A stretch of 64,000 nt of DNA from Paracamarosporium sp. OC-R06-R3 (Eukaryota > Ascomycota > Dothideomycetes > Pleosporales > Didymosphaeriaceae). This document shows positions 46,175-63,644 of this stretch, piece by piece. The notes under the pieces are model-generated. The model saw only the letters and a program-made list of their open reading frames with translations, searched no databases and had not been told where the DNA came from. Each line of letters opens with the position of its first letter. Position 1 is the first letter of the stretch. The stretch is taken from positions 62,001 through 126,000 of the forward strand of contig JACVRA010000023.1 in assembly GCA_019828545.1 (NCBI GenBank), written 5' to 3'. The position numbers and the translations under genes are program-made.

Positions 46175-47446
46175 TTATGCAAAGCCCTTGAGCACCGCTG
46201 CTTCGGCGTTCAAGATCGATGAGCCAGCCGCACCAATCACAGCTATAACAGGTCAGTATATGTGTCTCAAAGATGGGTTTTTGTATCGGAAAACATACTA
46301 TTGTGGCTCAAGGCAACGAACTTGATGTCAAAGATGCCTCCCTCGTCTTCTCGGATGCGGCCCACACTGACCGCATAACCTCTATCCGTCTCTCGATCTA
46401 ACCTGGGCTGCGGACGATCCGGCTCATCCATCACTGCGATTGCCCGAGTGGGCGCAGACGGGCATCCCAACTTCTGAACATCAGATACATATTCCCTCAT
46501 GGCTTGTTTGACCTCTTCGGCGCTCGGTGGGGGCCTCCGCTGGAAGCGTAGCGAAACGCAGGCCGTATGTCCATCGAGGACTGGGACGCGATTGCAGGCG
46601 GCGGAGACCTTCATGGGCTGGTCCACGAAACCAGTTACCTCGCCGTTGACGGTTCCTAATATCTTTTGCGCCTCAGTTTCGAGCTTGTCCTCCTCGCCCG
46701 AAATGAAGGGTACCACGTTATCGATTATGTCCATGCTGCTGACACCAGGATATCCGGCACCTGAAACGGCTTGCATTGTTACCACCGAGACCTGGTCCAC
46801 TGGCCCGAACTTCGCTTGGAGCGCGGCAAAAGGGATGACGATGCCGATGACAGCACAATTCGAGTTGCATACCAAGAATCCCTTCTCCAGGCCATGGTGT
46901 TTTCTTTGATGCGCGATGACGTCGAGGTGTGGGAGGTTGACGGTCGGCACAACGAGTGGGACAAGGGGATCGCGACGGTAGTTCTTTGCGTTTGAAAAGA
47001 CGGCGAGGTTGGCCTTCAGGAAGTCCATTTCTACTGTTGCGTTAGCCAGCGTCATCGCTCGTACAGATATTCGCTGAGCATACCAACTTGGCCCGCGACA
47101 TCGCTATCCAGCCCCGAAAACACCAAGTCGCACTCTGCGAACTCTTCCGGTACACACTTCTTGACAACCAAATCACCTATGCGTTGGTTGAATGGCAGCG
47201 CCTGCTTCCATTTCACCGCGTCCCTATACTTTTTACCGGCCGATCGCTCCGAGGCTCCCACAGCATGTAGCTCAAAATGCGGATGCAGCGCGAGGAGCAG
47301 GATGAAGCGCTGGCCGACCGAGCCTGTCGCGCCGAGAACGCCTGGATATGATAATGAGCATGATTCCACCGCGCAATTGATACATACGCACCGCACTTCT
47401 TCTTGGGAAAGTTGCTGTTCTTTGAGGTAAAATGTTCGGCGTCCAT
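46175..47446 (-). CDS. HOM2: Aspartate-beta-semialdehyde dehydrogenase
   Basis: Minus-strand four-exon model: 47446-47392, 47341-47084, 47033-46299 and 46242-46175, 371 residues (yeast Hom2 is 365). The NADP-binding loop [13 protein letters not shown] is created by the first splice. Then come [22 protein letters not shown], the active-site cysteine in [22 protein letters not shown], the catalytic-base region [17 protein letters not shown] and the last exon [15 protein letters not shown]. It reduces aspartyl phosphate to aspartate semialdehyde, the branch point to threonine, methionine and isoleucine in fungi. The path is absent from animals. The intron near 47083 has its branch-like CTAAC only about 10 bases before the acceptor; the choice CAG at 47034-47036 is the only one that gives VVEMDF in frame. 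Confidence 0.94.
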
Positions 47447-50400
47447 TGTGGTTGACTGTGCTTCAGAGTCTCGTCCCCCAGTCGCGCGTTCGTTGTCGTG
47501 TGCTGCTGTGACGCAGGCGGGGTGCTAGAATTATTGGTAGCGGGGTTAGTTCGAGCGAGGAAAATCAAAACCATCTCCGATCCCGGAGCCTCACGGTACG
47601 CCAGTGGAGGTACCTTGGGTTCATATGCAGCTCAAGTAAATATCGATCCAATTAGAGCGACATGTATCTTTACAGTATTCCCTGAAAGATTCATTGCAAG
47701 GGCCATTGGATAGCAATACAACCACGATGGTTCGTGAGCGTTACCAAGGAGCTTGACAAGCAAGTCGCAATTGCAACGACCTCAGGCTCCCTCGCGACAT
47801 GCGACAGTTCGCCGAATGAATATCTATTCGACCCACTCTGCTGCTACGCGTTGGTAGCTGCAAGCTCTCGCTTCTGCAACGAGTAACCTTCAATACTGCA
47901 CATATATAATAGAGAGAGCTTTCGCTGGTTCAATGGTTCTTGTTCGCTATAAACACGTGACGAGATGCACAAGTTGCTGACAGCAATCCATCACAGGGAT
48001 ACTTACGTATGGTGCCATTAAGATCAGATCTAGCAGCGAAAGCATACGTTCTTGCAACCACCATGGTACAATAGAATTTACTCTCCCACGGTGGCCTGGT
48101 TGATCGCCTGCATCACATCACACCACATTTCCCGATCCGCATTGATATGCCGTAGAGCACGCCTCCCATGATGGACCATCATACCAATCCAAAATGTGAG
48201 CTCTCAGGCGCTCGGAGATGGCCGTCGAGGACTGGTCACAAAAAGCACGAAATAGCCAAGCTGGATCTACAGGGGTAGGCATCTTGATTTGTACCCTGGT
48301 CTCGTTGCTGCAGTTGCGAGGCGAGGCGTTCTGATCCGCGCTTTCGACACGAACATGGCTGAACTTTGTGCTTCATACTCGAAACGCATACAAGGCATTC
48401 TGTGCAGATACGGATGAGGCGTGGTATTATTCTTCCGCCTGTACTTCCTTCCATCCGAGGACAAGGTGTGTCCAATACGGGACCCATTCTGGGCACATTG
48501 ATAGACTACATCGTCCTCATTGACAAAGTAGACAATGTTCAAACGGTCTCTAAAACGCCATCGAACGCCTTCATCACATCCTAAACCATCTAGCTTAAGA
48601 GCATATGGTCTGAGAGATAGACGCGATGATTCGCCTTAGCCATGATCCTAAATGTGCTTGAGTGGCGATGACAGAGCATACAAGGGTCCAATGCGACCAG
48701 GTCTCGCGGCTGAGCGTAGACAAGTCTCCCCATGAGTGCATTAGCATGCTACTGATATGCACACTTATCGGCTCTCTAGGGTACCATCATAATTCAAGGA
48801 GGAGCCGAATTCTACATGGTCTATCAAGGAATGGACGCCAACCGTTCAGATTAACGATGCGCCATAGGGTAACACGCCTGCACGGCGAGCACAATGTATG
48901 TGGTACGTCGCGTGGGGCTCACGTTCCGAAGCCCGTCAGTGTGCGGCCGACATCATTTTTGGGCCATGATGCATGTTTGCATATTAACTGCAGAGCGACC
49001 CCTGGCGGCATGGGGACGCAAATGGGCCAGCCATGCAAGATTTAACGAAGCCCCATGCGGTTAAGTCCTTTCTAGACGACACCCTGCATCTTTCTGTAAT
49101 GTTGTTCGCGCCGACGGGTTTCGACACCATGAACCTCGTGTACCTGATGCACCGAATCACGAATATGGCGGTATGGATGAACTCCCCCATGACCTACTGC
49201 GAATCCAGGCTTGCAAGGCGAGTAACACAAAACTCTGTTTGCAGCAGTACGGGTCAATGCCTACTATGAAGAGTAGCCTATCGAACACAAAGACGGAACA
49301 GCAGGCAAACGAGGGGATGAAGGAGAGCCCTGGAAGTGTTCTACTGCACGCGACTGACGGAAGTTGAAAATGATTGTGGAAAACGTGGCTAAGGAGCTAC
49401 GTGTTTCCCAGAAGTGTCCTCCCCTTTGGCACTCCCGGATACGAACCATCATGGTGACCCAACCTTGTGCGACATACGAACATTGACGAGCTTCTGAAGG
49501 CTGGTATGCATGGAGTCTGCCCGCGAGCGTACGGGTTCTAAGACCAAAGCAGAACTCGTGATTTTAGGTTCTGATCTGTTGCTGATTCAAGACACGGTAA
49601 AGCCACCGGATTGGCTCGAGCGCTTCAAACATACGACAACCCAGATGGATCAAGTGGGGTGGTTAGGCAGTATCCCTGCTTCATGGAACAAAGTAAGAAG
49701 TCATCACGCTCTTACCAGCATTTTGGGGTCGCCTAAAGGCACAGAGAGTGTCTCAGACTCAGCAGGGAACAGGTTTGGGGGGTTGAATTTCCTGCATGCC
49801 CGGTAAGAGCAACGGCTTCCCTGCCTATCGAGGTTTGTGCTGCTACACGTTGCATGCTACGTAGGGAAGTGCCAGAGAGATCGGTTCATTGTGAATAACA
49901 GGTCTGCAACGATGTAACGAGACGACTGCTCTGTTTAGAAGCAAGTATGTAGTGATTGTGCTCGATCCGCCTCGCTGTGATACACTGGCATCACCCGGCG
50001 TCAGACCCGTTTGGCGTCTATTCACAGCGACGCGCAGGCGAGGAGGATTCTGCCAGAGGCACTGCAGCGTCGGGATATGCGCGGTGCGGCGCGGACGGCG
50101 CGTCTCGGGGCAGCGCTGGGGGCGGCTTGGCTAGCAAAAGGCGCGGATGGCGTTTTCGTGGGTGTGACCGCCACTACTTCGGATACAACCCGTGCCTATT
50201 CATCTCCACTGCAAAGAAAACAAACTCCACAAGCCACGCGCCAAAGCAAACAGCTGGAAGGACTGTGCGAGGGATCATCCCCTACGTGCCCCACGGAACT
50301 CGCGTAATCACCGCCACTGATATACTGCCCTTGACCAAGGAACAATGGCTAAGGTACAGTACCAAGCGGAATGCGAATCGATACATCGTCGTCTACGTTC

Positions 50401-51333
50401 GTTTCCTTGCATGAATGCGGATCGTGTGCGTTGGCGAGGATTCCACCGCCCGCAAGCAGTCATGGGGCACACTGCACGCACAGGGGCTTCTATGCGAGGG
50501 GAAGCCAGGGTTGGACTGTCGACGAGCAGGACGGCACAGCATCCAGTGGGCAGCTCTCCTCTTGTCTCACCGGTACAAAGAGTCTGCGTACAGAGTGCGG
50601 GGTCCTGCTCAAATGCAACTGTAAGCAACATTTCGGCGCGAGTTCCAGACATCACTCACGCCGGCGTCTGTTTATCGCTACCGTGAAACCTTGATTCGTC
50701 TAGTAGTCTATTCATAAAACTTTCAGGACCTTCTGTATACCTGAATCACGGCACAGTAATCCCTGAGACGCCTGGAATTTTCTTTCAAGGTCTAGAGCGC
50801 GGGATAAGGAATAATGACCTAGCTGAGTTATGCAAGGACGCCAACCCGACTGTCATTGGTTGGCTCGAGCCCTTGCACTGCTGGGGGGACTCATACCAAC
50901 TCTAGTGAACTTCGAATGGACTGCTATGTTGTAGTCTTTCCGTAGTGGTTCTGTTGTGCTTGTAGTACTATATCATCTATGCTCTTCGTAGAGAAAGCAC
51001 TGTTTCGATCCCTACATGTCGCACATGTCAACCCCCGAGTGTCCTTATGCATGACAATGACAAGCTTTTGTCATGCATAATAGCGGTGCGGAAGACCGGC
51101 ATAGCTTTGTGTAACACCCACAGGATGTGCTGAGATTTTGTGGCGCTCGAATCGGATGCATATTGCTGCTGGGCTCCTTTTTAACGCGCACCCTCATGAT
51201 CAAAGTTGTTCGTCCACGGCCAGTCTCTCCAAAGACTTTCACGCGTCATGAAGAGTGCATTCTGTCTATAAGAATTTCAGCTAGGGCAACGTAAAGTGCT
51301 TCAAGATCACATTCGCTACTGCTAAACATTACA
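47447..51333. other. Gene-poor region, proximal part
   Basis: Nearly 3.9 kb with only short, overlapping frames and no domain I recognise. A GC-rich patch at about 50030-50170 stands out from the surrounding sequence; frames there (49956-50414 plus strand, for example) are rich in Gly, Arg and Ala, as expected from base composition. I see no terminal inverted repeats, transposase or reverse-transcriptase motif. Confidence 0.45.
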
Positions 51334-52913
51334 ATGGACGCTTCGGTCAATCCTTCTTTTGTGCCCGCTGCGGTTGGCTTGTTACTACCTAACTTGCGTA
51401 CTTCACTAACTTGATTCAGGAACGTGCGCTCTCTGGATTTTTCTCTCACATATTCCCGCACACTAAATTGAAAGTCACCTGTCAGCCAGGCCCGCTTCCG
51501 AGCCGTATCGATGCGTGGATACTCCCTGATCATGGCGAGATTGCGGAAAAAAGGTTCGAGGAACATAGGGAATCAGAGCTGAGAAGAGTTGCAGAGGAAG
51601 TGCTCGAGATGTTTCTCGATATCATGGTTGGATGACCTCTCAGAGTTAATAGTACAGCAACTGACTTCACCAGAGAGCATCCGATCCGCTTACGCTCAAG
51701 CGGGTAAAGCATAAATGGAAGATTTCGAACATCGAGGACACACACTTCCTCTACTACTTCCAAGAAGAAGAGAAACATACCGAAACTTTGCTCAGGATGA
51801 TTGAAGATCATTTGCTCTCGCTATCCGGCCGTTATTCAGTCGCGCCTCCAGGAAGTATCCTTGTTTTGGGTGGAGAACGTATTGTTGCTCAACTCGCAGT
51901 AGGTTCGGCCTGACATTGAATGATCTGGGTTGACACTCCTTAGCTCGATGCTATAGAAGAGTTCGTCTGGAACGTGGTACCCACCAGGCTTGTCAACGCT
52001 TATCGCCCCAATTCCACCTTCAACTCGTACTCTTCGTGGATTCATCCCCACCGCATCGAGAGTATAAAAACCCAACACGGAACAAGCATTAGCCAGCAGA
52101 TAGTGGATGAAGAAAGGAGTTTCGTTGTGTCTGAACTGGTCCACGATTTCCTACACCACACAGTAAGTAAGCCTTGAAAAATGCACGAATGCGAACGTCA
52201 GTAACGATGCATAGGCTCTTGTTGGAACAGTAAAAGATATGGTTCTCATTGGAAATATTGAGAGATGGAGGCTCAAGAAGATGAGCGAATTTCACCCTGC
52301 ACTCAGGTATCAGTTGCAAACGGATAGGCGATTGAAAACTCTCGAAATCATCGGAAATGTGGTCGATCGTTGTCTTTGGAGGCTTGAGCTGGAGTCCAAA
52401 AAGTGGATGGAGATACCGCTGTGTGTACTTCGGGGCGTCCTAAAAGAATGGGCGACGGTCAACGTCACCCAGACGGGTTGGGACATTCCCGACAGGAATC
52501 GAGTTCCATCTTGGTGGCCTGACGTTTTGCGCGTCAGCGCTCTAGACATTCAGGGTGTGTCAAGGGCCTTCATTCAATAGGGGTACTCAGCTAACAATCC
52601 AACAGAGGCAGCAACACTTGCCGTAGATCTCACCCATTGCCACTCGAGTTATTATTGGCGTCGCGAATTGGAAGCAAAGGCGCAGAAAGGGATGGAAGAG
52701 ATGGCTGAACGGGTGGCGGACGAATATTACAAGGATTTTTTGGAGAACCAGGTTGCAGGACAGATGATTCCCCACATCTTTGGCATCGTTGGACACTCTC
52801 ATGATGAGAATGCTTGGATGTTTCAATCCCAGTTGGCCGAAGTTTTGTGTTCTACCGAGACGCCTGGATTTCATTGTGCTCCTTCGCACCCTTACAGTCA
52901 CTTCAGCGGTTGA
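51334..52913 (+). CDS. Unknown protein, six-exon gene in a gene-poor region
   Basis: I do not recognise this protein. A spliced model explains five neighbouring frames: exons 51420-51626, 51674-51898, 51944-52162, 52215-52554 and 52606-52913, with four in-phase introns of 45-52 nt (donors GTTGGA, GTAGGT, GTAAGT, GTGTGT; acceptors all AG; a clear GCTAACA branch in the last). A first exon 51334-51372 (MDASVNPSFVPAA) can supply an ATG but needs a weak GTTGGC donor. The product, about 445 residues, is rich in charged helices: EEVLEMFLDIM, DTHFLYYFQEEEKHTETLL, GSILVLGGERIVAQLALDAI, EFVWNVVPTRLVNAYRP, HTALVGTVKDMVLIGN and EMAERVADEYYKDFLENQ. Consecutive phase-compatible introns argue for a real gene under recent constraint. 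The 5' end and the final exon are the least certain. Confidence 0.5.
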
Positions 52914-55900
52914 CAGATCTCTCGCTGTCCCCAGTATGCTATCTAGCCTCTTGGGACAGCTTGAAAGGTATTCTTGGAAAATATTTGTTTGAGGATATGG
53001 AGGGCAGGTAGTCATTACTTGTATATTCAGATTGTTTTGACTGCGCAGTCAGAATTGTACATTTGCACAGGTGAAGTTTTGGTCCTACCTCAGACATTGT
53101 GAGCCAAGTCGATAGTTTGACCAGTGTGATGAAGAAGCACATTCTTTTTGCTTAGGTACATGTGTGTTATGCCGTTCTTGTGGATATAGGCGACGTCTTT
53201 GGCAACTTGAAAGCTTCATCTTTTCCGTACAGCGTTGAGAATGCTGTTATCCTTCTTATCGATGTACGACTAAAGGTCATCACATAAGTTGCAATCAATA
53301 CGAGAGCGATTTTCATAAAGAGACGTACTCGAGCTCTTGAAAGCTTCGAAACGTCTGCGGCCTGTTTAAGCAGCACTCACATGCGTAAGCCTCGTTCGAG
53401 ACAAGTGATGAGCTGGTCTGACTAGATGTGGCCATCGATTTTGGGTCTGCAGATGACCGCTTTGCGTTGTGGAATCAGGCTATACTTAGAGGTAAGTGGG
53501 GAAGCAAAAGTGTATGAGCAGATAATATTCTCATTCATCCATGAAGTTTCTCACATGAAACGTCAGCCAGACGCTCCAATCGTCCTCGATATCTTTCATC
53601 ATAGTGAAGCACATAACATATCCTCATTAGTCGATCGTTGGGCCCCGTGGAATTGCGATCGACCCCTGTTAGTCATCGCCTGTGCCGACAAGAGTGAAGG
53701 TAACGCAACCCGCGGGGTGCCAAGATCATCCCTGCAGGCCTCATTTTGATACTTCGGCAAGGCTAGCGCCTTGAAGACGGTAGACAGGGAGCCTACTTCT
53801 GCGTCGAGGTGGCCCCTCACTGTACAAGCAAAAGGGAAAGACCCACCATGCCGAGGAACGTAGTACGGAAGAAAGGAGCGGCTCCATCTAGACTCGTGCA
53901 AGACAGCCACCAGTGTTATCAGCATCCCACCTACGTTTGACAGCATGGTCTTTTGCCAATTATAAATGCTACACACCGTGGGACTATTCCGTACTGCAAC
54001 ACTTGACATAGACTTTCGTTATCGAGAACCTTAAGCTTAGCTACCACAGAATGGGAGCTTCTAAGACACTTTTACAGCCTATTTCCATGTTTGGGGAGCC
54101 GGCCGGAGAACCCAGGGGTATCTGTTGTGGAAGGAACGGCATGGCTATTTGTCAGTATGTCGGCAACGCATACCCAGATGAGAACTGCGTGGAAGCAACA
54201 TATGTGGTGAGAGGGTTCAAAGTAGGCATTGAAATTCCATACCCTCAGCCTAACAAGATATTTCCACAGAGGTATGTTTTGGGCCAACGCCGCTATTCAA
54301 ATACTGATTTTGAAAGCGCATCCAACCGAGAAGATGTCTTCAATGAGAGGAATGTCGAAGAGAAACGAATTGATACGGGGATCAGAGAGACCAGCGAGTG
54401 CCATGGGTAGTAGAGGTTGCTGGTCATATCAAACAGTTTTGTGAGCGTTAACATCAATGAACTACAAATCCTTCAGTTGGGACATCAGAGCTGCGCGCAA
54501 TACATTCTCTTGCACTTGAGAACAATGGGGAATACCCCCCGACAGATCGGCCTCCACCTTGTATATTCCTTCCCGTATCTGGCAAGCCAAGGTTTTCATC
54601 CTTGAATGGCTTCCAATTTCTTATTCGAGATGTTTTCGATGTGATGCCAGGTAGTGTGCGATATGCAACCCGTTGCTGTGCGAAATGACTGGGCAAGACT
54701 CAAACCATTGAAGCACAATCATGCAACACCCCGCTTTCATTCCGCTTCCACGCTCCAGCCATCGGATTGATCGCGTGTACCTCACGAAGTTCTTTGCGAT
54801 CGCGTATGGATAGTGAGAGCTTGCATTGACTTACGATCATGCAGATCGAGCGCTCCGAAACCCATCTAACCTACTTAAAAAGAATAGACAGACGAATGAA
54901 ATATTTGACTCAAATTTTAGTAATGTGATTGCTGCGAGCGCTACGTGGAGGGCTATTGCACAAAATACAAGACAGGCCAATTTTGAAGTCTCACATTGGA
55001 CACAGGCGAGTCAATTAGGAAGGTCTAGTTCATCTTGACGAATGTCTTAGCATTATATCATAGCATTTATTATACGAGCGATTGTCAACACATCTACGAT
55101 CCATGGCCAGGTGGCGATGTAAGCGGTTCTTGCAAGGTGGCTAGCAAGACATCCCAGTATCGCTTTGAGAACTGACCAAGATTGTCCGTGATTCTGAGGT
55201 GTCTTCAGAGCTTTTCAAACTCACTCGCAGATATCTCAAGCTGTCGAAAAAAAAGAAACCCTGGGACCTCTTCTATTCGTCGCTCGATAACTGAGAAGCT
55301 GTGTAGAATTCGATCGTCGTTCAAGCACAAGATGAGGACATTACTGTCTTCTAGATTCAAAAAGGTCACAGTCTTGAATTTTTGAGTCGTCATGTGGAGA
55401 GGCGGAAAGATTGAATGCGTGGGTGGCTCGTTTATAAAGTGTGACCAAAGTCTCATCATATGACCAATTTGCATGGAACGAAGATAGGACCTATTCATAA
55501 AGAGACTGCTTGAGATTCAAGGTGTAATAGGATGCGAATGCTAGGAATGCCCGTGGGACATGACGTCCTTTATGCTCAGCGGCTGCGGTACAGAGAACGT
55601 GAACCACCCATATAAACACAAGATCGAAGGCGTTCTGGATCCGTCACTAAACGTCATTCGTGCTTCCACTTGCAGGTGATGATCCTAGTAGGGCCCCTCC
55701 TCAGGTGCAACGGGCTATGCTCATGCTATGCGAGACAATTATGTTCGCAGACGATTTCGTTGCAACACCACAAGTGTCACCATGTTCCCCTCGCTGCTTA
55801 TCGCCAACGGAGTCATTGATGACGATTCTTGTGTTATTTACCTTGCAATCCCAACATGTGATTGTACTTTCGGTTCGGTGCTCGCATGAGCGGATCATAA

Positions 55901-55987: not shown

Positions 55988-57337
55988 TTACCATTTGTTA
56001 TCAATGATTCTGCCGTTCTTCCGATTCACCATCCGTGTCACCGGCTGCAGTTCATCTAGCTTACCTCCGAATTCGATCCCCTTGCGCATGACCTGGCGAT
56101 AGTTCCGACCCGGCGAAACCTTCCCCAATACATAACCTTGACGAGTCTCCACACAGTCGGGCACGTTGATACTACGACCGACCACAGCTTCCATGCCTTG
56201 CCATGCAAACGTGATAGCTTCCTTCGCGTCGCCTGGAATGCCGGCCTCCTCTAACATCATGATTTTTGTATCTGGAAAGGACTTCTGCAAGAACGATGTG
56301 ATGTTCGGGTTCTTAGCGCCGCCGCCGCACATGAAGATCTCAGCCAGAGGTCCATATCCCTGAGGCATATACCGGTGGTAGTGCTCAACAATGGCTTGGG
56401 CAGTGACACGAGTGATTGTCGCCACAATATCGTTTTGTGAGAGACCCTTTGCAAGTCCTTTTGCAATCATGTCGTCGGCGATGGTATCCCGGAATACCTC
56501 ACGACCAGTGGTCTTGGGTGGTTCTAGGGCAAAGTAGGGATGTGTTGTAAGAAATTCATCTACCATTTCTTGATCGACCGTTCCCGCTGCACCCATCTTG
56601 CCGTCTTTATCGTACTCCATCTTGCCGTTCGTAAAATGTCTTACCGCAGCATCAATGAAGACATTGCCAGGGCCCGTGTCGAAATCGAAGAACTCCTGGT
56701 TCAGCTCTCCATCCCGATCCGGGGGAATGAAACATACATTGGCGATCCCCCCAATGTTTTGACATGCTCGGAGCTTTGTAGGGTGGTGGAGTACCAGCGA
56801 GTCGAAAAATGCGATAAGTGGAGCACCCTGCCGACCAGCAGCCTGGTCTGAGACGCGGAAGTCTGTGACAGTTGTGATTCCCGTTCTTGATGAGAGAAAT
56901 GTGCCTTCAGCCATGGTTAAGGCAGATTTGGTATGTCCTTTCTCGGGCATGCTGAGTAGCCATATTGTCTGGCCATGCGATCCAATGACATCGATATCAG
57001 AGAGGGGTATGTCGTGTCTGGATGCGAACTGAATTGCGGCGGCTGCAAACGTCTCTCCCAGCAGTACGTTGACTTCTGATAGTTCCTCAGGCGTGGTGCG
57101 GTTGTGATAGATCATGTTCATCACGCGCTTCTTTATGACGGGCTCTAGGGGTATTTCGTCGTACGCAATGAGCTCGAAATCCATTGGCGATGAAGGCGAA
57201 TCCTGGCGAAATCTGCACAGAGCACAATCGATGCCATCCATAGACGTCCCTGAGTTCATCCCGAGGACAGTCAAATCCAAGGGAGCAACATGATGAACGC
57301 CATTCGGGCCATGACTGCCATTGGTGAGAGAGACCAT
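55988..57337 (-). CDS. Levoglucosan kinase (AnmK family)
   Basis: Intronless, 449 residues from the ATG at 57337 (the frame extends six codons upstream to a GTG only). It belongs to the anhydro-sugar kinase family of the ASKHA fold: [13 protein letters not shown] (28-40) is the ATP phosphate loop, [11 protein letters not shown] (119-129), [11 protein letters not shown] (164-174), [11 protein letters not shown] (193-203), [14 protein letters not shown] (217-230) holding the family's catalytic Asp (about 220), and [13 protein letters not shown] (334-346). Bacterial AnmK acts on anhydro-MurNAc from peptidoglycan, which fungi lack. The fungal members are known as levoglucosan kinases, with Lipomyces starkeyi as the type, converting levoglucosan plus ATP to glucose 6-phosphate by coupled ring opening. 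Length and the [20 protein letters not shown] stretch match that fungal branch as I recall it. Its neighbours, a regulator and a sugar transporter, fit this use. It may derive from an ancient bacterial transfer. Confidence 0.9.
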
Positions 57338-57791
57338 AGTCAAGAAGGATGGCACATGCAGAAGTCAGATAAGATGATTGTACTCGGCTATAAGGGAGAC
57401 GTTGAGTTCACGCCACGTGCCATGTTCGCCCCTCTTGATCTACGGCCTGGGCTAAAAACGGCAAAGATTCGGTCGTTGGCCCGCAGACGGAGGGCCACAA
57501 CCTGGGAAAACACCTGGTAGAGAGTGTGGGGAAGCAACGGATAGGAGTAGTATCCCATCCTAGTAGTGGCAGGACGCGTCTACATGCGGCAATGTAAAGC
57601 GGCAGGAGATCCACAAGTGGGTCGGCAACCGAGTGGTCAAAGCTCAGCTGGGCCGCTAAGCCGAAAGCAGAAGGGATGAAAGGCTGCTTGTTCCTTGCTT
57701 AAATGGCTAAAAGCCCCTTCCAGGACCGCGACATCCCCTTGCCTCCGTCTCCACTCTTGCACCCGGCATCGACGCCCCTGTCCCTAGTTAC
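57338..57791. promoter_or_regulatory. Divergent promoter between levoglucosan kinase and its putative regulator
   Basis: 454 bp separate the two start codons. Candidate Zn2Cys6 half-sites are present: CCG-N4-CGG at 57481-57490 (inverted), and CGG triplets at 57443, 57459 and 57470. Such triplets are common by chance, so binding is only a suggestion. A CTATAA lies near 57388. Confidence 0.4.
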
Positions 57792-59552
57792 ATGCATACA
57801 CAAATGGTCAGCGACTCCAACCGGCCAGTAAAGCGCCGACGTGTCACTCAAGCCTGCGATTACTGTCACCGGCGCAGCATCCGCTGTCAGCTTGCAGAAG
57901 GAGACATTCATCAGCGGTGCATCAACTGCATCGACTTTGACCAACCATGCACGCGCGACCGCGTTGTGAGACGTCGAGGAGTAAAGCCAAACCGGAGTGG
58001 ATCGCAGCAAACGCCTTCACCCTCACTCCAAGCTGCACAAACGACAGACTCTAGTGGCCTAATCCACGTGCGTCCCTCGTCTGCCATGCCATGGACAGCA
58101 CCCCATGTTGCTAGCCAAGCTGCCATTGTCGATCTCATCGAAGTCTATTTTGAGGTGGTCTACCCCATCTTCCCTCTCTTCCATCGCCCGAGCTTCTCGC
58201 GCAAGATCTCTCGCGGCGAATATGGAAACAATCGACAGATGTTCGCCGTGACAATGGCGGCTTGTGCGCTCGCTTCTGCTCGAGCGGCTGATAATGCCCT
58301 GTTCGACGCCATGTGGGACGGACAGGGCCTCGGTAGTACACCATCGGAAGTCTTCTACGAGGCAGCTATCAATGCTTTACCCAAAACGGACACTCCCGAG
58401 CAAAGTCTTGATCTTATGCGTGCATATGCATTGCTGTCACTTACTGCTATTCAATATGGTAACACACGTGATATGCAAGGCTATCTCGGCAAGTATCATG
58501 CTTTGGTAGCCATGGACGGGCTGCACGACGAGGCCAACTGGCCCCAGGACCTTACAATCGTTGAATTGGAAGAGCGTCGACGGCTGGTAAGGTGCACCAC
58601 TCTATGCAATTTAGCCCGCCGTTGACTGATACAGTACTGGTCCATGTATACCCTTGACATATTTTCTTGCATTGTCTTCAATAGCGTGATTCGTAGTCGG
58701 GAAGAACAGTCTAATGTTCGATATACGACAGAGCTAGACGATGCCTACTTCGACAACAGCGGTTACCGGAACGAAACCCACTCTCCAGTTGATGCCACCA
58801 GTCCATCTAGTATTGTTTCAGACAGCTGGATTCGCGGATGGAACATCACGACTGACTTATGGCGACTGCTCGAGCATGTCACGATGAAGTTGCATAGCCA
58901 TACAAAAAAGAAGCGTTCTTTCTTGGAGGTTGCAACTAATTTTGAAACGTCTCCGTCCACTAGAACTCTTCAAGCTGAGGTAGATCGTATCTACTACGGC
59001 TTGCCATATCATTTTCGACAGATCAAAGAAAGAACCGGAGACCAGAGCAAGGATAGGTACGGTTTTCAAGCGGCGAACATCACTGCTACTGTGCAACTCT
59101 TACGAATGGTTCTTCTGGCATCGGAACACAACACTGTCGAACAGCGCTGTCAGGTTGTCAGCGAAGTCGTCAATGCTTTCATGCGCATACCAACCTCATA
59201 TTTACGAGCCATTAGCTGTCCGCTACTACATCACCTCCGAGGGATTGGCTCGGTGCTCGGGGGCGTCCTTGAAGAGCCTTTGGTAGACTACCAGTATCAA
59301 CAGGTCCGTACGGTATTACTTTCACTGGCGCAACTACTAGAAAATCTAGACATTGGCATTCACTCAGTCAAATCTGCGCAGAAACTCAGAGGTCTTGTTG
59401 TTCAAATCGACGACCACATGGCATCTCGCGGGAGCAGTGCATCTACCACGGCCATTTACCCGGGTTCTCACGGTCGTGATTTGCAGCTACCACAGGATTT
59501 TCTATCAGCATGGCCATGGAAAACGGGTTTCATGCAATTTCCCGGGACTTGA
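57792..59552 (+). CDS. Zn2Cys6 transcription factor
   Basis: Model: exons 57792-58586 and 58635-59552, 48-nt intron, 570 residues. The N-terminus shows the binuclear zinc cluster: ACDYCHRRSIRCQ, then CINCIDFDQPCTRDR, i.e. C-x2-C-x6-C, a loop, C-x2-C-x6-C, preceded by a basic KRRR. A Ser/Gln/Pro linker follows and then the fungal-specific middle homology region (VDLIEVYFEVVYPIFPLFHR, RRRL joined to YWSMYTLDIFSC, WNITTDLWRLLEHV). It binds CGG half-sites in the nucleus. Located between a levoglucosan kinase and a sugar porter, it is the natural candidate for the pathway-specific activator, with the sugar or a derivative as signal; that role is inferred. The second ATG at codon 5 is an alternative start. 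Confidence 0.88.
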
Positions 59553-59976
59553 GTATGTGAACGACTCAGCGCCATAAGACCATGAAGTTTCATGACTTAA
59601 CCACGTTAGTCCGATCCCTTTGATTGGTATACATACGACCATTGCCGCGCTTCTATGGTGTGGGGAGCATCCCGCAAACGTCCGGTATATGGCAGACTAT
59701 CGGCTTTCATTGGTCTAGACAAACGAACTGACAGTATTTTGGCGTTCAGCCTTTTAACCGCTCAACCGTGCGGGGGAATTCCAGGTCCATCATCCTTGGC
59801 AACAGCTTCCCCATGGCGTCCCGCGTTTAGGAATTCCATCTTGCGTGACTTCAAACTCGGCCACCATTTTTACCTCATGAGCCAGTCCGATGGCTATAAA
59901 ACCACGGTGAATCCTTGCGCTACAGCGGACGACAAGCTGAAGGTTTCCTTTTCGCGACAGCATTACCGTCTATACC
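59553..59976. promoter_or_regulatory. Upstream region of the sugar transporter gene
   Basis: 424 bp between the regulator and the transporter, both on the plus strand. A CCG-N8-CGG arrangement lies at about 59671-59684. Long open frames without a plausible start fill the rest; I see no separate gene. Confidence 0.35.
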
Positions 59977-61590
59977 ATGGCTTTCCAACCATGGCAGCGC
60001 ATTCCCGGCAGGGTTTTGATGTTCCTCATCAATGCCTTTATTTTCATCGCACTAATCTTCGAGGGATATAATCAAGGTGTTTTGGGCACCGTTTCTGGCA
60101 CTCCAGGCTTCATCGACACCATGAACATCGGCGCTGATGGCGTAGTAACGGATTCGACTAAGCAGGGAGGTCTCTCTGCAGCATATTATTTCGGTGCCAT
60201 GTTTGGAGCCTTCATCGGTGGTTGGGTCGGGGACAAGTACGGCAGAAAAGTTGGAGTCTTCGCTGGTGCATGGCAGGGCGTGCTTGGAGGAGCGCTGCAA
60301 GCCGGCAGTATCAACTCCAACATGTTCATCTGCGCCCGAGTCATCACTGGTCTTGGAATGGGTTTTGTCATGGCTATCGTTCCTCCATGGGTCTCAGAGT
60401 TGTCTCAGGCGCACGACCGCGGTTCCAACTTTTCGTTCATTTTTGTCGCCAACTTCCTCGGAATCACGATCGCGAACTGGTTGAATTTCGGCGTACGAAA
60501 TTCAGCCATTGAATTCAGGTGGCGTTTCCCGCTCGGGTTTATGTGCATTCCGGTCTTCATCGTCGCCGTGACGGTGTTGGCTGCACCCGAATCACCGAGG
60601 TGGCTGATGGCGCATGATCGACGCGACGAGGCTGTTCAGATTCTGTGCAAAGTACGAGGCGATATTGATCCCTCTGATCCTTCGATCAAGGAAGAACTCG
60701 AGCATCTGCATGCCATCGTGGAAGCTTCCAAGCATCCGAGGAACAGCTACGTCAATCTAGCTTTGGGTGGGCGACAATCAGGCGTGTTGCATCTTGGTCG
60801 GCGTGCAATCCTCGGCTTTGCATTACAACAGATCCAGCAGTGGTCCGGGATCATCGCTGTCGTCACTTGGAGCAGTAAACTGTTCTCATTAGCAGGCTTC
60901 GACGAATTCAAGTCCCTGTGGATGGGTGGCCTGGTAAATACTTTGGGAATATTTGGAACAGCAGCGGCAGGCTTGATCATCGATCGCATTGGTCGCCGAA
61001 TGAGCTTGCTAGTGTCTTTCAATCTACAAGGTATTGCATTGTTCGTGGTTGCTGCTCTCATCAAATCTTCCGAGAACTTTGCGGAAAGCGATCCTGGCAT
61101 GTCAGAGCGCCTTGGCCAAGGGGCAGCCTCGTTCGTCTTCATCTACCTGTGGTTCTTCACCATGTTCAACATCGTTCCCTGCTGGCTCTATGGTACTGAA
61201 ATTTGGCCACAAGATGTCCGCGCCAAGGGGTACTCCTTCACTATCCTAGGTTGGGCAATCGGCTGCGGCATGACTACTTTCCTGATCCCTATCATGCTCT
61301 CTAAGATCGGATGGTATACATTCATCTTCTTTGGCATCATGAACGCCGTGGTGATCCCGTTAATCTACTTCTTCTACATCGAACCCGCAGGCCACAGCTT
61401 GGAGGAAGTAAACTTGTTGTTTACAAGCGACAGTCCTTTCGTCAAGCGCAACGTTGAGGAATACGAGAGACGAGTTGCCGCTGCGGGCGGGAACGCGGCT
61501 GTTGCTGCGCGCCGGCTTATGGAAGAGGTTGATGGTATTGTTACTCCTGATGATATAAAGATAGAGGAGCTGAAGGATGCGCATGCTTAG
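59977..61590 (+). CDS. MFS sugar porter, candidate levoglucosan transporter
   Basis: Intronless, 537 residues. Sugar-porter signatures are complete: GYNQGVLGTV in helix 1, GGWVGDKYGRKVG between helices 2 and 3, ARVITGLGMGF, PESPRWLMAHDRRDEA after helix 6, LQQIQQWSGI in helix 7 (the QQxxG-like sugar-binding site), GLIIDRIGRR, and WLYGTEIWPQDVRAKG before the last helices. About twelve transmembrane segments and a hydrophilic C-tail are predicted by eye. Sugar porters of this type carry mono- or disaccharides with protons across the plasma membrane. Its place next to the anhydrosugar kinase suggests levoglucosan or a related sugar as cargo; this is inferred from context. Confidence 0.9.
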   Translation: MAFQPWQRIPGRVLMFLINAFIFIALIFEGYNQGVLGTVSGTPGFIDTMNIGADGVVTDSTKQGGLSAAYYFGAMFGAFIGGWVGDKYGRKVGVFAGAWQGVLGGALQAGSINSNMFICARVITGLGMGFVMAIVPPWVSELSQAHDRGSNFSFIFVANFLGITIANWLNFGVRNSAIEFRWRFPLGFMCIPVFIVAVTVLAAPESPRWLMAHDRRDEAVQILCKVRGDIDPSDPSIKEELEHLHAIVEASKHPRNSYVNLALGGRQSGVLHLGRRAILGFALQQIQQWSGIIAVVTWSSKLFSLAGFDEFKSLWMGGLVNTLGIFGTAAAGLIIDRIGRRMSLLVSFNLQGIALFVVAALIKSSENFAESDPGMSERLGQGAASFVFIYLWFFTMFNIVPCWLYGTEIWPQDVRAKGYSFTILGWAIGCGMTTFLIPIMLSKIGWYTFIFFGIMNAVVIPLIYFFYIEPAGHSLEEVNLLFTSDSPFVKRNVEEYERRVAAAGGNAAVAARRLMEEVDGIVTPDDIKIEELKDAHA

Positions 61591-61854: not shown

Positions 61855-62574
61855 CTAGCCCGTCTTTTCTAATTCCTGCATATACTCCTCCGCATTCTTC
61901 TCTTCAACCGCATCAAGACCTAATCTTTCTCCCACTTCCCCCGCAAATATCTTCCCTACGTCCCTAACCTCGATGCCCTCAACACCCTCCCGCTCAAAGC
62001 TCGTCGTCCTCTTCCCCTCGAGCCCGCACGCCACAATGCGTCCAAACCACCACAAATCAGTGTTCACGTTCAATCCCACTCCATGACTGGTGATATTCCG
62101 GCGCATATGCACGCCAATGGCAGCGATCTTGTCATCGGGCGTTGTCCACACGCCCGTATGCTCCGTCGTCATTGCCTTTATGTTGTATCGCGCACATGTC
62201 GCTATCAGCGACTTCTCCAAAAGACACACATAATCTCTGGGCGTGAGTTTGTGCGTGCGCAGGTCGATGATGGGGTAGGCAACTAGTTGGCCCGGTCCAT
62301 GGAAGGTCGTCTGCCCTCCACGCAGCGCCTCGACGAACTCAGCTTGCCCACCGTTTCGCAGGTACTTCTGCTGCTCTGCAGAGACGGTGCCGATCTCTCG
62401 GCGGCCGCACGTGTATACCGGGTTGAACTCAGCCGTTATGATGTGTGGTGGTGGAGCGGGGAGGCTAGAAGGCGGCTTCGAAGCAAGGAAACGGGAGACG
62501 AGCGTTTCTTGCAGGGATTGGGCGGTGCGATACGAGATGGGGCGCGGAAAGTGGACGTGGATGAGGGGCCGCAT
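61855..62574 (-). CDS. LIP2: Lipoyl(octanoyl) transferase, mitochondrial
   Basis: Intronless, 239 residues. Signatures: FNPVYTCGRRE, EALRGGQTTFHGPGQLVAYP (the RGG-x2-T-x-H-x-P-G-Q motif), TEHTGVWTTPDDKIAAIGVH with the catalytic-site Lys, and ITSHGVGLNVNTDLWWFGRI. The usual thiol Cys is represented by ACGLEGKRTTS. It moves octanoate from acyl carrier protein to the lipoyl domains of glycine-cleavage H protein and 2-oxo-acid dehydrogenases in mitochondria, the first step of lipoate synthesis. It is slightly shorter than other fungal forms, and its N-terminus is basic (RPLIHVHFPRPISYR) but not a classical presequence; an upstream start is excluded by the short distance to the divergent POP7 gene. 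Confidence 0.9.
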   Translation of the reverse strand: MRPLIHVHFPRPISYRTAQSLQETLVSRFLASKPPSSLPAPPPHIITAEFNPVYTCGRREIGTVSAEQQKYLRNGGQAEFVEALRGGQTTFHGPGQLVAYPIIDLRTHKLTPRDYVCLLEKSLIATCARYNIKAMTTEHTGVWTTPDDKIAAIGVHMRRNITSHGVGLNVNTDLWWFGRIVACGLEGKRTTSFEREGVEGIEVRDVGKIFAGEVGERLGLDAVEEKNAEEYMQELEKTG

Positions 62575-62790: not shown

Positions 62791-63644
62791 ATGGGCAAGA
62801 AGAGGTCAAGCGACGGGAAAGAGAAGCCCTCTGGGCCAACTCAACATCGAGCCCCAAACGACACACCTTCAGGCGCACAAGCTCCCCTCTCTTCAAGCGC
62901 ACCTTCGGATTCATCACGGGACGCCAAAAAGCAGAAACACTTACATGGCGATCCCAAAGCATCTCATCAGGCTTCCTTTCGGAAACAGAAGCGCAAAAAG
63001 TTGCCAAAACTACCTCCCAGTACGTTAGCTTGTTCCTCAATCCCATGCGCGACTGGTACTGAAGGAATTTTGTAGACGCCTCCGTGTCGAAACGCCCACT
63101 CCACCGCCCTGCGATTCCTACGCCTTTCTCCTCCTCCGACCATCCAAAAATACTCTATATTTCACACTCGACACCCTTCATCCCGACCCTGAAACGCATC
63201 CGTAGCTTGCTCCTCGAGAGCTCCAAGCGACAAGCCCAATCACAAACCTCGCAGCTCTCTCGGAATCGACAACAAGGGCGGAACCGAAGACCACTCGAAC
63301 CGAATGGACGTCTTGCGCCCGGGGACGTGGAGCTGGACATTGCTGAAGCAGGGAAGGGTAAGGGCGAACGTGGAGGTGGAGAAGATGTCTATGTCAAGGC
63401 GACAGGGAGGGCGATCGAACGCGCATTAAAATTCGGTTTGCATTTCATGGGCGAGAGTGATTGCAGGGTGAGAATAGAAACGGGGAGCGTGATGGCGGTG
63501 GATGATATTGAGATACGCCACGACGAAAAGGAAAAAGTCGCAGAGGGTAACAATCAGGCAAAGGAAGGATCAAGAGACGATGACGTGCCTGAAACGAGGA
63601 TTAGAATGGTAAGCTCGGTCACGGTGACTATCGGGCTTAAGTGA
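62791..63644 (+). CDS. POP7: RNase P/MRP subunit Pop7/Rpp20 (Alba-like)
   Basis: Model: exons 62791-63019 and 63076-63644, 56-nt intron with GTACGT donor and TTGTAG acceptor, 265 residues. A basic Lys/Ser/Pro-rich N-terminus leads into the Alba-like core: HPKILYISHSTPFIPTLKRI, RSLLLESSKRQAQ, then VYVKATGRAIERALKFGLHF and MVSSVTVTIGLK at the C-terminus. An insert of about 60 residues, rich in Arg, Gly and Glu, widens the domain compared with the human form. Pop7 pairs with Pop6 on the RNase P and RNase MRP RNAs in the nucleus and nucleolus, used for pre-tRNA and rRNA maturation. The family match rests on the Alba core; I did not find other domains. Confidence 0.8.

Follow-up and report, generated by a model that had tools for sequence, protein, structure and literature searches.

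A probable levoglucosan-utilisation cluster of kinase, Zn2Cys6 regulator and sugar-porter genes in Paracamarosporium sp. OC-R06-R3

Which sugar is consumed through a locus where an AnmK-family kinase gene lies divergent from a Zn2Cys6 regulator gene and a sugar porter of the major facilitator superfamily (MFS) comes next? The question is raised by a stretch of 64,000 nucleotides from Paracamarosporium sp. OC-R06-R3 (contig JACVRA010000023.1, positions 62,001 to 126,000), called here the window, which belongs to a genome of 43 Mb in 337 contigs. The first-pass annotation had placed the three genes in 55988-61590 and read them as a compact catabolic cluster for levoglucosan. We found this span to be correct, with three intact adjacent genes in the arrangement described (Table 1), and we consider it probable that the trio is a dedicated cluster for levoglucosan (1,6-anhydroglucose) catabolism, combining import, one-step activation and dedicated control. 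The porter would import levoglucosan, and the kinase would open the anhydro bridge and phosphorylate the sugar in one ATP-dependent step. The product, glucose 6-phosphate, would enter glycolysis, so that no further enzyme would be required. The regulator would turn on kinase and porter when levoglucosan is present. In this scheme the kinase is assigned most securely and the regulator least.

By sequence comparison, the kinase is well supported as a levoglucosan kinase by type and is predicted to phosphorylate levoglucosan. In a search of PDB sequences its best solved relative was the levoglucosan kinase (LGK) of Lipomyces starkeyi, with 686.8 bits against at most 171.2 bits for AnmK structures. 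In a joint alignment it was 70.7% identical to LGK (427 columns) and 30.2-33.3% identical to two bacterial AnmKs, while identity with its two paralogues from the same genome, on contigs C41 and C85, was 42.5% and 28.8%, respectively. The nearest named protein, from Neocucurbitaria, was 88% identical. The nucleotide and catalytic motifs GTSMDG, FDTGPGN and CGGGA were all intact, and FDTGPGN with its catalytic Asp was kept in 120/120 of the best homologues listed. D220 of the window kinase aligned with LGK D212 and Pseudomonas aeruginosa AnmK D182, which we take to be the catalytic residues of these enzymes.

Two segments at or after the GQT motif, one of ten residues that includes WLLSMP and the other ALTMAEG, were shared by the window kinase and LGK, and were found in identical form in 103/120 and 110/120 of the same homologues, respectively. 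At these places both bacterial AnmKs and the C41 paralogue carry His (RH or WH) and LQ/VQ..P, which the window kinase does not; that these mark AnmK is a reading from two AnmK chains. The GQT-side segments presumably line the sugar pocket. The window kinase scored below every NCBIfam AnmK cut-off listed, which alone does not discriminate because the C41 paralogue also fell under the cut-offs. With two peptide patterns, no LGK-like source in bacteria came to light: a single-protein scan yielded no fungal or close bacterial relative, and the 40 loci with bacterial titles from an alignment scan did not exceed 38% identity. A predicted structure of the kinase (mean predicted local distance difference test score of 64.5, below 50 around GQT and FDTGPGN) was set aside, as the crystal structure of a 71% identical protein is available. 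The earlier levoglucosan assignment is thus borne out by both LGK identity and LGK-type segments. Passages of PMC10066097 likewise state that fungi appear to use levoglucosan kinase exclusively for this sugar.

That assignment had also leaned on the premise that fungi have no peptidoglycan. This holds for peptidoglycan of their own, but not as proof of a levoglucosan role. A Pfam search of the genome detected three AnmK-family loci: the window kinase, C41 and C85. On C41, at about 227558-239970 (L004, L006 and L007), the AnmK gene was seen among MurQ-, NagA- and PBP4B-like frames, an MFS fragment and a Zn_clus protein; PBP4B is a hydrolase of the serine beta-lactamase fold. Because of these neighbours, finding a gene of the AnmK family in a fungus does not suffice to infer levoglucosan use; the levoglucosan argument rests on the LGK-type sequence. 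The C41 AnmK gene needs three introns to read through and hence is not a bacterial contaminant. In a genome search for MurQ, C41 gave the best E-value (2.6e-42) and C53 a weak one (5.2e-4). The MurQ and NagA pieces, which are single exons or frames, scored under the NCBIfam cut-offs (MurQ 148.7 against 302 bits in one search and 163.8 against 168 in another; NagA 152.6 against 225.65), as did the whole PBP4B frame (156.1 against 385). Since all three matches lie below curated cut-offs, assignment of the C41 gene set is probable, not proven. A third MurQ stretch there contains stops, as expected of unspliced introns, and NamZ was searched for and not found. The neighbourhood of murQ, murP and yfeW in Escherichia coli resembles the C41 set.

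As read from these matches, the C41 set would convert 1,6-anhydro-N-acetylmuramic acid (anhydro-MurNAc) to glucosamine 6-phosphate, and its AnmK is probably the likelier anhydro-muramate kinase of the genome. It is probably a fungal gene set for feeding on anhydro-muramate from bacterial walls and may be more surprising than the levoglucosan cluster; no description of a fungal MurQ/AnmK cluster was found in the open-licence literature searched. The third family member (C85:474489-475676; L008:8490-9677) carries Val for the catalytic Asp and has lost GTSMDG, which marks it, by sequence, as a pseudokinase. Upstream of it, on the opposite strand, a Zn2Cys6-like frame was seen by eye, one piece of which was tested and had no Pfam match. 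One genome thus probably holds an LGK-type gene with porter and regulator, and, on C41, an AnmK-like gene accompanied by the amino-sugar enzymes needed to process its product.

If the trio is a functional unit, its genes should recur together. For each of the three genes we took the top 120 homologues from protein searches (120 kinase, 119 porter and 120 regulator rows, one porter row, P0123, being dropped because it gave no contig size), using exactly equal size of the longest encoding contig as a proxy for co-location; on large contigs such a match does not prove adjacency. At least 34 contigs of other assemblies appeared to carry two or more of the homologues: four all three, eight kinase and porter, 16 kinase and regulator, and six porter and regulator. 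When the lists were shifted as a control, 24 comparisons (eight shifts by three pairings) produced 2 matches. Nine of the 34 contigs were shorter than 31 kb, among them one of 6,438 bp carrying the whole trio, one of 3,742 bp with kinase and regulator and one of 4,408 bp with kinase and porter; altogether kinase and porter were common to 12 contigs, two of them of 4.4 and 6.4 kb. Named organisms on shared contigs were Neocucurbitaria (Dothideomycetes), Exophiala, Rhinocladiella and Cyphellophora (Chaetothyriales, Eurotiomycetes), and Xylaria, Fusarium, Trichoderma and others of Sordariomycetes. The named contigs common to kinase and porter fall in Chaetothyriales and Sordariomycetes.

Locus tags pointed in the same direction, and among the homologues listed two of the genes had adjacent tags in six genomes. 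Kinase and regulator are 012200 and 012190 in Neocucurbitaria, where tags step by 10, kinase and porter are 003647 and 003646 in Exophiala oligosperma, and porter and regulator are g9728 and g9727 in Fusarium decemcellulare; two trio genes each have tags 007477 and 007478 in Rhinocladiella similis, 01950 and 01951 in Cyphellophora europaea, and 05587 and 05586 in Akanthomyces lecanii. In E. xenobiotica LTS15 the kinase is 002473 and the porter 002471. Gene order may vary, with kinase and porter as neighbours in E. oligosperma and most tags fitting kinase-regulator-porter, the order of the window, from few cases. Covariation of identity over shared contigs, taken as an orthology test, was mixed and is given no weight (rho of 0.60 for kinase-porter, n = 12; 0.57 for kinase-regulator, n = 20; -0.25 for porter-regulator, n = 10). 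A porter of Zymoseptoria tritici was in the list, 62% identical to the window porter. Table 1 of PMC7317419 gives AnmK, MFS sugar transporter and transcription factor models of Zymoseptoria as consecutive (G1889-G1891 and contig42g00010-00012), numbered kinase-porter-regulator in Z. tritici and kinase-regulator-porter in Z. brevis. Conserved synteny, predicted at the outset, was accordingly supported by the 34 size-matched contigs, with some genomes as exceptions.

The porter scored 223.2 bits with the sugar-porter profile TIGR00879, slightly under the 237.8 cut-off. Within its own genome the best match by E-value was 33% identical, and 38-43% was reached on partial stretches only (81/210 candidates scored); its relatives on shared contigs were 60-66% identical in 16/18 cases and 78-81% in two. 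In transmembrane segment 7 (TM7) glucose porters have an Asn that binds sugar. STP10 and GlcP read GIN at this site, where the window porter has Ile (QQWSGII), and all 120 of the porter relatives listed carry Leu, Ile, Met or Val. From this substitution we infer a changed specificity, and the loss of Asn points away from ordinary hexoses as the substrate.

The regulator, 83% identical to its nearest named protein (Paraphaeosphaeria sporulosa), matched Fungal_trans with 65.6 bits (cut-off 23) and Zn_clus with 16.5 bits, below the 21-bit cut-off. By eye, six Cys are spaced C-x2-C-x6-C-x10-C-x2-C-x6-C, the first of which was present in 105/120 homologues listed, the remaining 15 being gapped. With a six-Cys cluster and Fungal_trans it is, by its domains, a Zn2Cys6 transcription factor. 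A promoter motif common to the divergent gap and the promoter of the porter was rejected, since the shared 8-mers were equalled in 63 and the shared 9-mers in 66 out of 300 Markov-resampled controls. CGG-N15-CGG is present in both regions, no more than a tentative lead.

Several observations weigh against the trio as a levoglucosan cluster. Passages of PMC9476349 report Gal2 Q341 and W455 as steric barriers to levoglucosan, and porter Q288 and W403, both bulky, correspond to them (mapped by motif, not alignment); by this mapping Gln was kept in 104/120 and Trp in 110/120 of the relatives listed. The simplest prediction for a levoglucosan porter therefore fails. The two promoter regions had no more words in common than chance would give, which leaves the targets of the regulator unproven. 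The passages of PMC9476349 also give crude yeast extracts with Lipomyces LGK 1.67 +/- 0.89 U/mg against 1.25 +/- 0.77 for the empty vector; clear activity is thus not guaranteed for an LGK-type gene. Among the matches listed, only 28/120 kinase, 18/119 porter and 26/120 regulator rows had a listed partner. Elasticomyces LTR10 has kinase 017560 and regulator homologue 009524 on different contigs, Torrubiella hemipterigena has porter VHEMI 01730 and regulator 04132 apart by the contigs listed, and Xylaria venustula has its kinase on contig 88777 and porter and regulator on 148145. Some of these separated homologues may be paralogues.

The bulky porter residues and the lack of a common promoter motif favour an arrangement in which the kinase acts on levoglucosan, the porter serves another sugar or a polyol and the regulator governs only some of the three genes, these being neighbours through shared regulation or history. 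So do the six contigs with porter and regulator homologues and no listed kinase, where absence from the best 120 kinase homologues does not establish absence of the gene. We regard this arrangement as unlikely, since kinase and porter share 12 contigs, including the two small ones, and the missing TM7 Asn speaks against ordinary hexoses as the substrate. The cluster could otherwise be directed at another 1,6-anhydrosugar (mannosan, galactosan or cellobiosan) or at 1,6-anhydroglucose released enzymatically and not derived from fire, and the named hits, in fungi as different as Exophiala, Fusarium, Xylaria, Trichoderma and Beauveria, do suggest a common, not merely fire-derived, substrate. LGK identity points however to the glucose isomer, and the glucosidase that cellobiosan would need was not seen among the neighbouring frames scanned, which makes this explanation quite improbable. 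We give slightly less credence still to a kinase acting, as its family name would have it, on anhydro-MurNAc or anhydro-N-acetylglucosamine of bacterial walls. Pfam and NCBIfam both label it AnmK, and the genome has a MurNAc-type gene set elsewhere; the kinase is nevertheless close to LGK, not AnmK, in identity and in its GQT-side segments, the genome-wide MurQ search matched C41 and weakly C53 and not the contig of the window, and the scan of nearby frames showed no NagA-like one (no genome-wide search for NagA was made).

The dedicated levoglucosan cluster remains the reading that we prefer. What the first-pass annotation had called a compact catabolic cluster is upheld in the type of the kinase and in the recurrent clustering, while the roles of porter and regulator follow only from the clustering; from it we infer porter substrate, regulator targets and inducer, and the ecological source of levoglucosan is likewise conjectural. 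With somewhat more doubt than belief, we propose further that the porter represents a dedicated fungal family of levoglucosan importers without the TM7 Asn and the regulator a levoglucosan sensor, both retained alongside LGK across much of Pezizomycotina, and that in this genome the AnmK family has split into a levoglucosan route and an anhydro-muramate route with MurQ and NagA.

Coordinates are collected in Table 1; regulator exon limits are a reading of the genomic sequence and give a predicted spliced product of 570 aa. Downstream of the porter the genes are ordinary neighbours. Left of the cluster, 47100-55900 of the window has just short frames listed (minimum lengths 80 and 170 aa), and 48000-55900 recurs elsewhere in the genome as short 64-77% pieces only, on C9 and C258. 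A GH3 frame adjoining sugar-porter matches was seen at C3:43988-46620, another possible sugar-use pair.

Table 1. Features of the kinase-regulator-porter locus and its downstream neighbours (window positions)
Feature	Position	Strand	Basis or detail
Kinase, LGK-type AnmK-family, 449 aa, no intron	55988..57337	-	PF03702 283.5 bits; predicted catalytic Asp D220 in FDTGPGN
Kinase/regulator divergent intergenic gap, 454 bp	57338..57791	.	sequence
Regulator exon 1: Zn2Cys6 cluster and start of Fungal_trans	57792..58586	+	alternative in-frame ATG at 57804
Regulator intron, 48 bp, GT..AG	58587..58634	+	sequence
Regulator exon 2, through stop	58635..59552	+	sequence
Porter promoter region, 424 bp	59553..59976	.	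sequence
Sugar-porter MFS, 537 aa, no intron	59977..61590	+	PF00083 (Sugar_tr) 255.6 bits; TM7 motif QQWSGII
LipB-like lipoyl transferase, next gene downstream of porter	61855-62574	-	ordinary neighbour
Rpp20 RNase MRP/P subunit domain	63063-63641		ordinary neighbour

Biomass burning yields about 100 million tons of anhydrosugars, levoglucosan among them, per year (PMC4752346), and passages of PMC8753852 and PMC9476349 call levoglucosan transport poorly known and limiting in engineered microbes. A conserved cluster supplies a candidate importer and a candidate biosensor, and its conservation suggests that levoglucosan use is an ordinary trait of many ascomycetes. In the open-licence literature searched we found no description of a native fungal levoglucosan porter or regulator. 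XylF, proposed in a passage of PMC8753852 as a likely levoglucosan transporter in engineered E. coli, is also a candidate importer, but is a bacterial ATP-binding cassette (ABC) component in an engineered strain, whereas the window porter is of the MFS and stands beside a native kinase.

Among known systems, Lipomyces starkeyi LGK (PDB 4yh5, 4zlu and others) shares with the window kinase its overall identity, catalytic motif and GQT-side segments, but is treated in the literature passages as a single enzyme. Bacterial AnmK (PDB 3qbw, 3cqy) shares family PF03702 and the catalytic Asp motif, with 30-33% identity and His and LQ/VQ segments that the window kinase lacks. The Zymoseptoria trio, a possible counterpart, has the same three kinds of genes numbered consecutively; the passages of PMC7317419 list it just as neighbours of the LGS secondary-metabolite locus, without a proposed function. 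Bacterial levoglucosan dehydrogenase loci (lgdA, lgdB1, lgdB2 and lgdC, with ABC or MFS transporters and regulators), as described in passages of PMC10066097, similarly combine a catabolic enzyme with transporter and regulator for levoglucosan, but use an unrelated oxidative, multi-step chemistry where the window cluster would need one kinase step. Co-location kept across lineages, as expected of a fungal catabolic cluster, was found through matching contig sizes, with some genomes as exceptions. A Zn2Cys6 activator and an MFS permease also accompany the enzyme in other fungal catabolic clusters, for example that for quinate, which thus have the architecture of the window cluster, although enzyme and substrate differ. 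What appears new here is thus a candidate importer and a candidate regulator beside a known fungal LGK, in the architecture of known fungal catabolic clusters.

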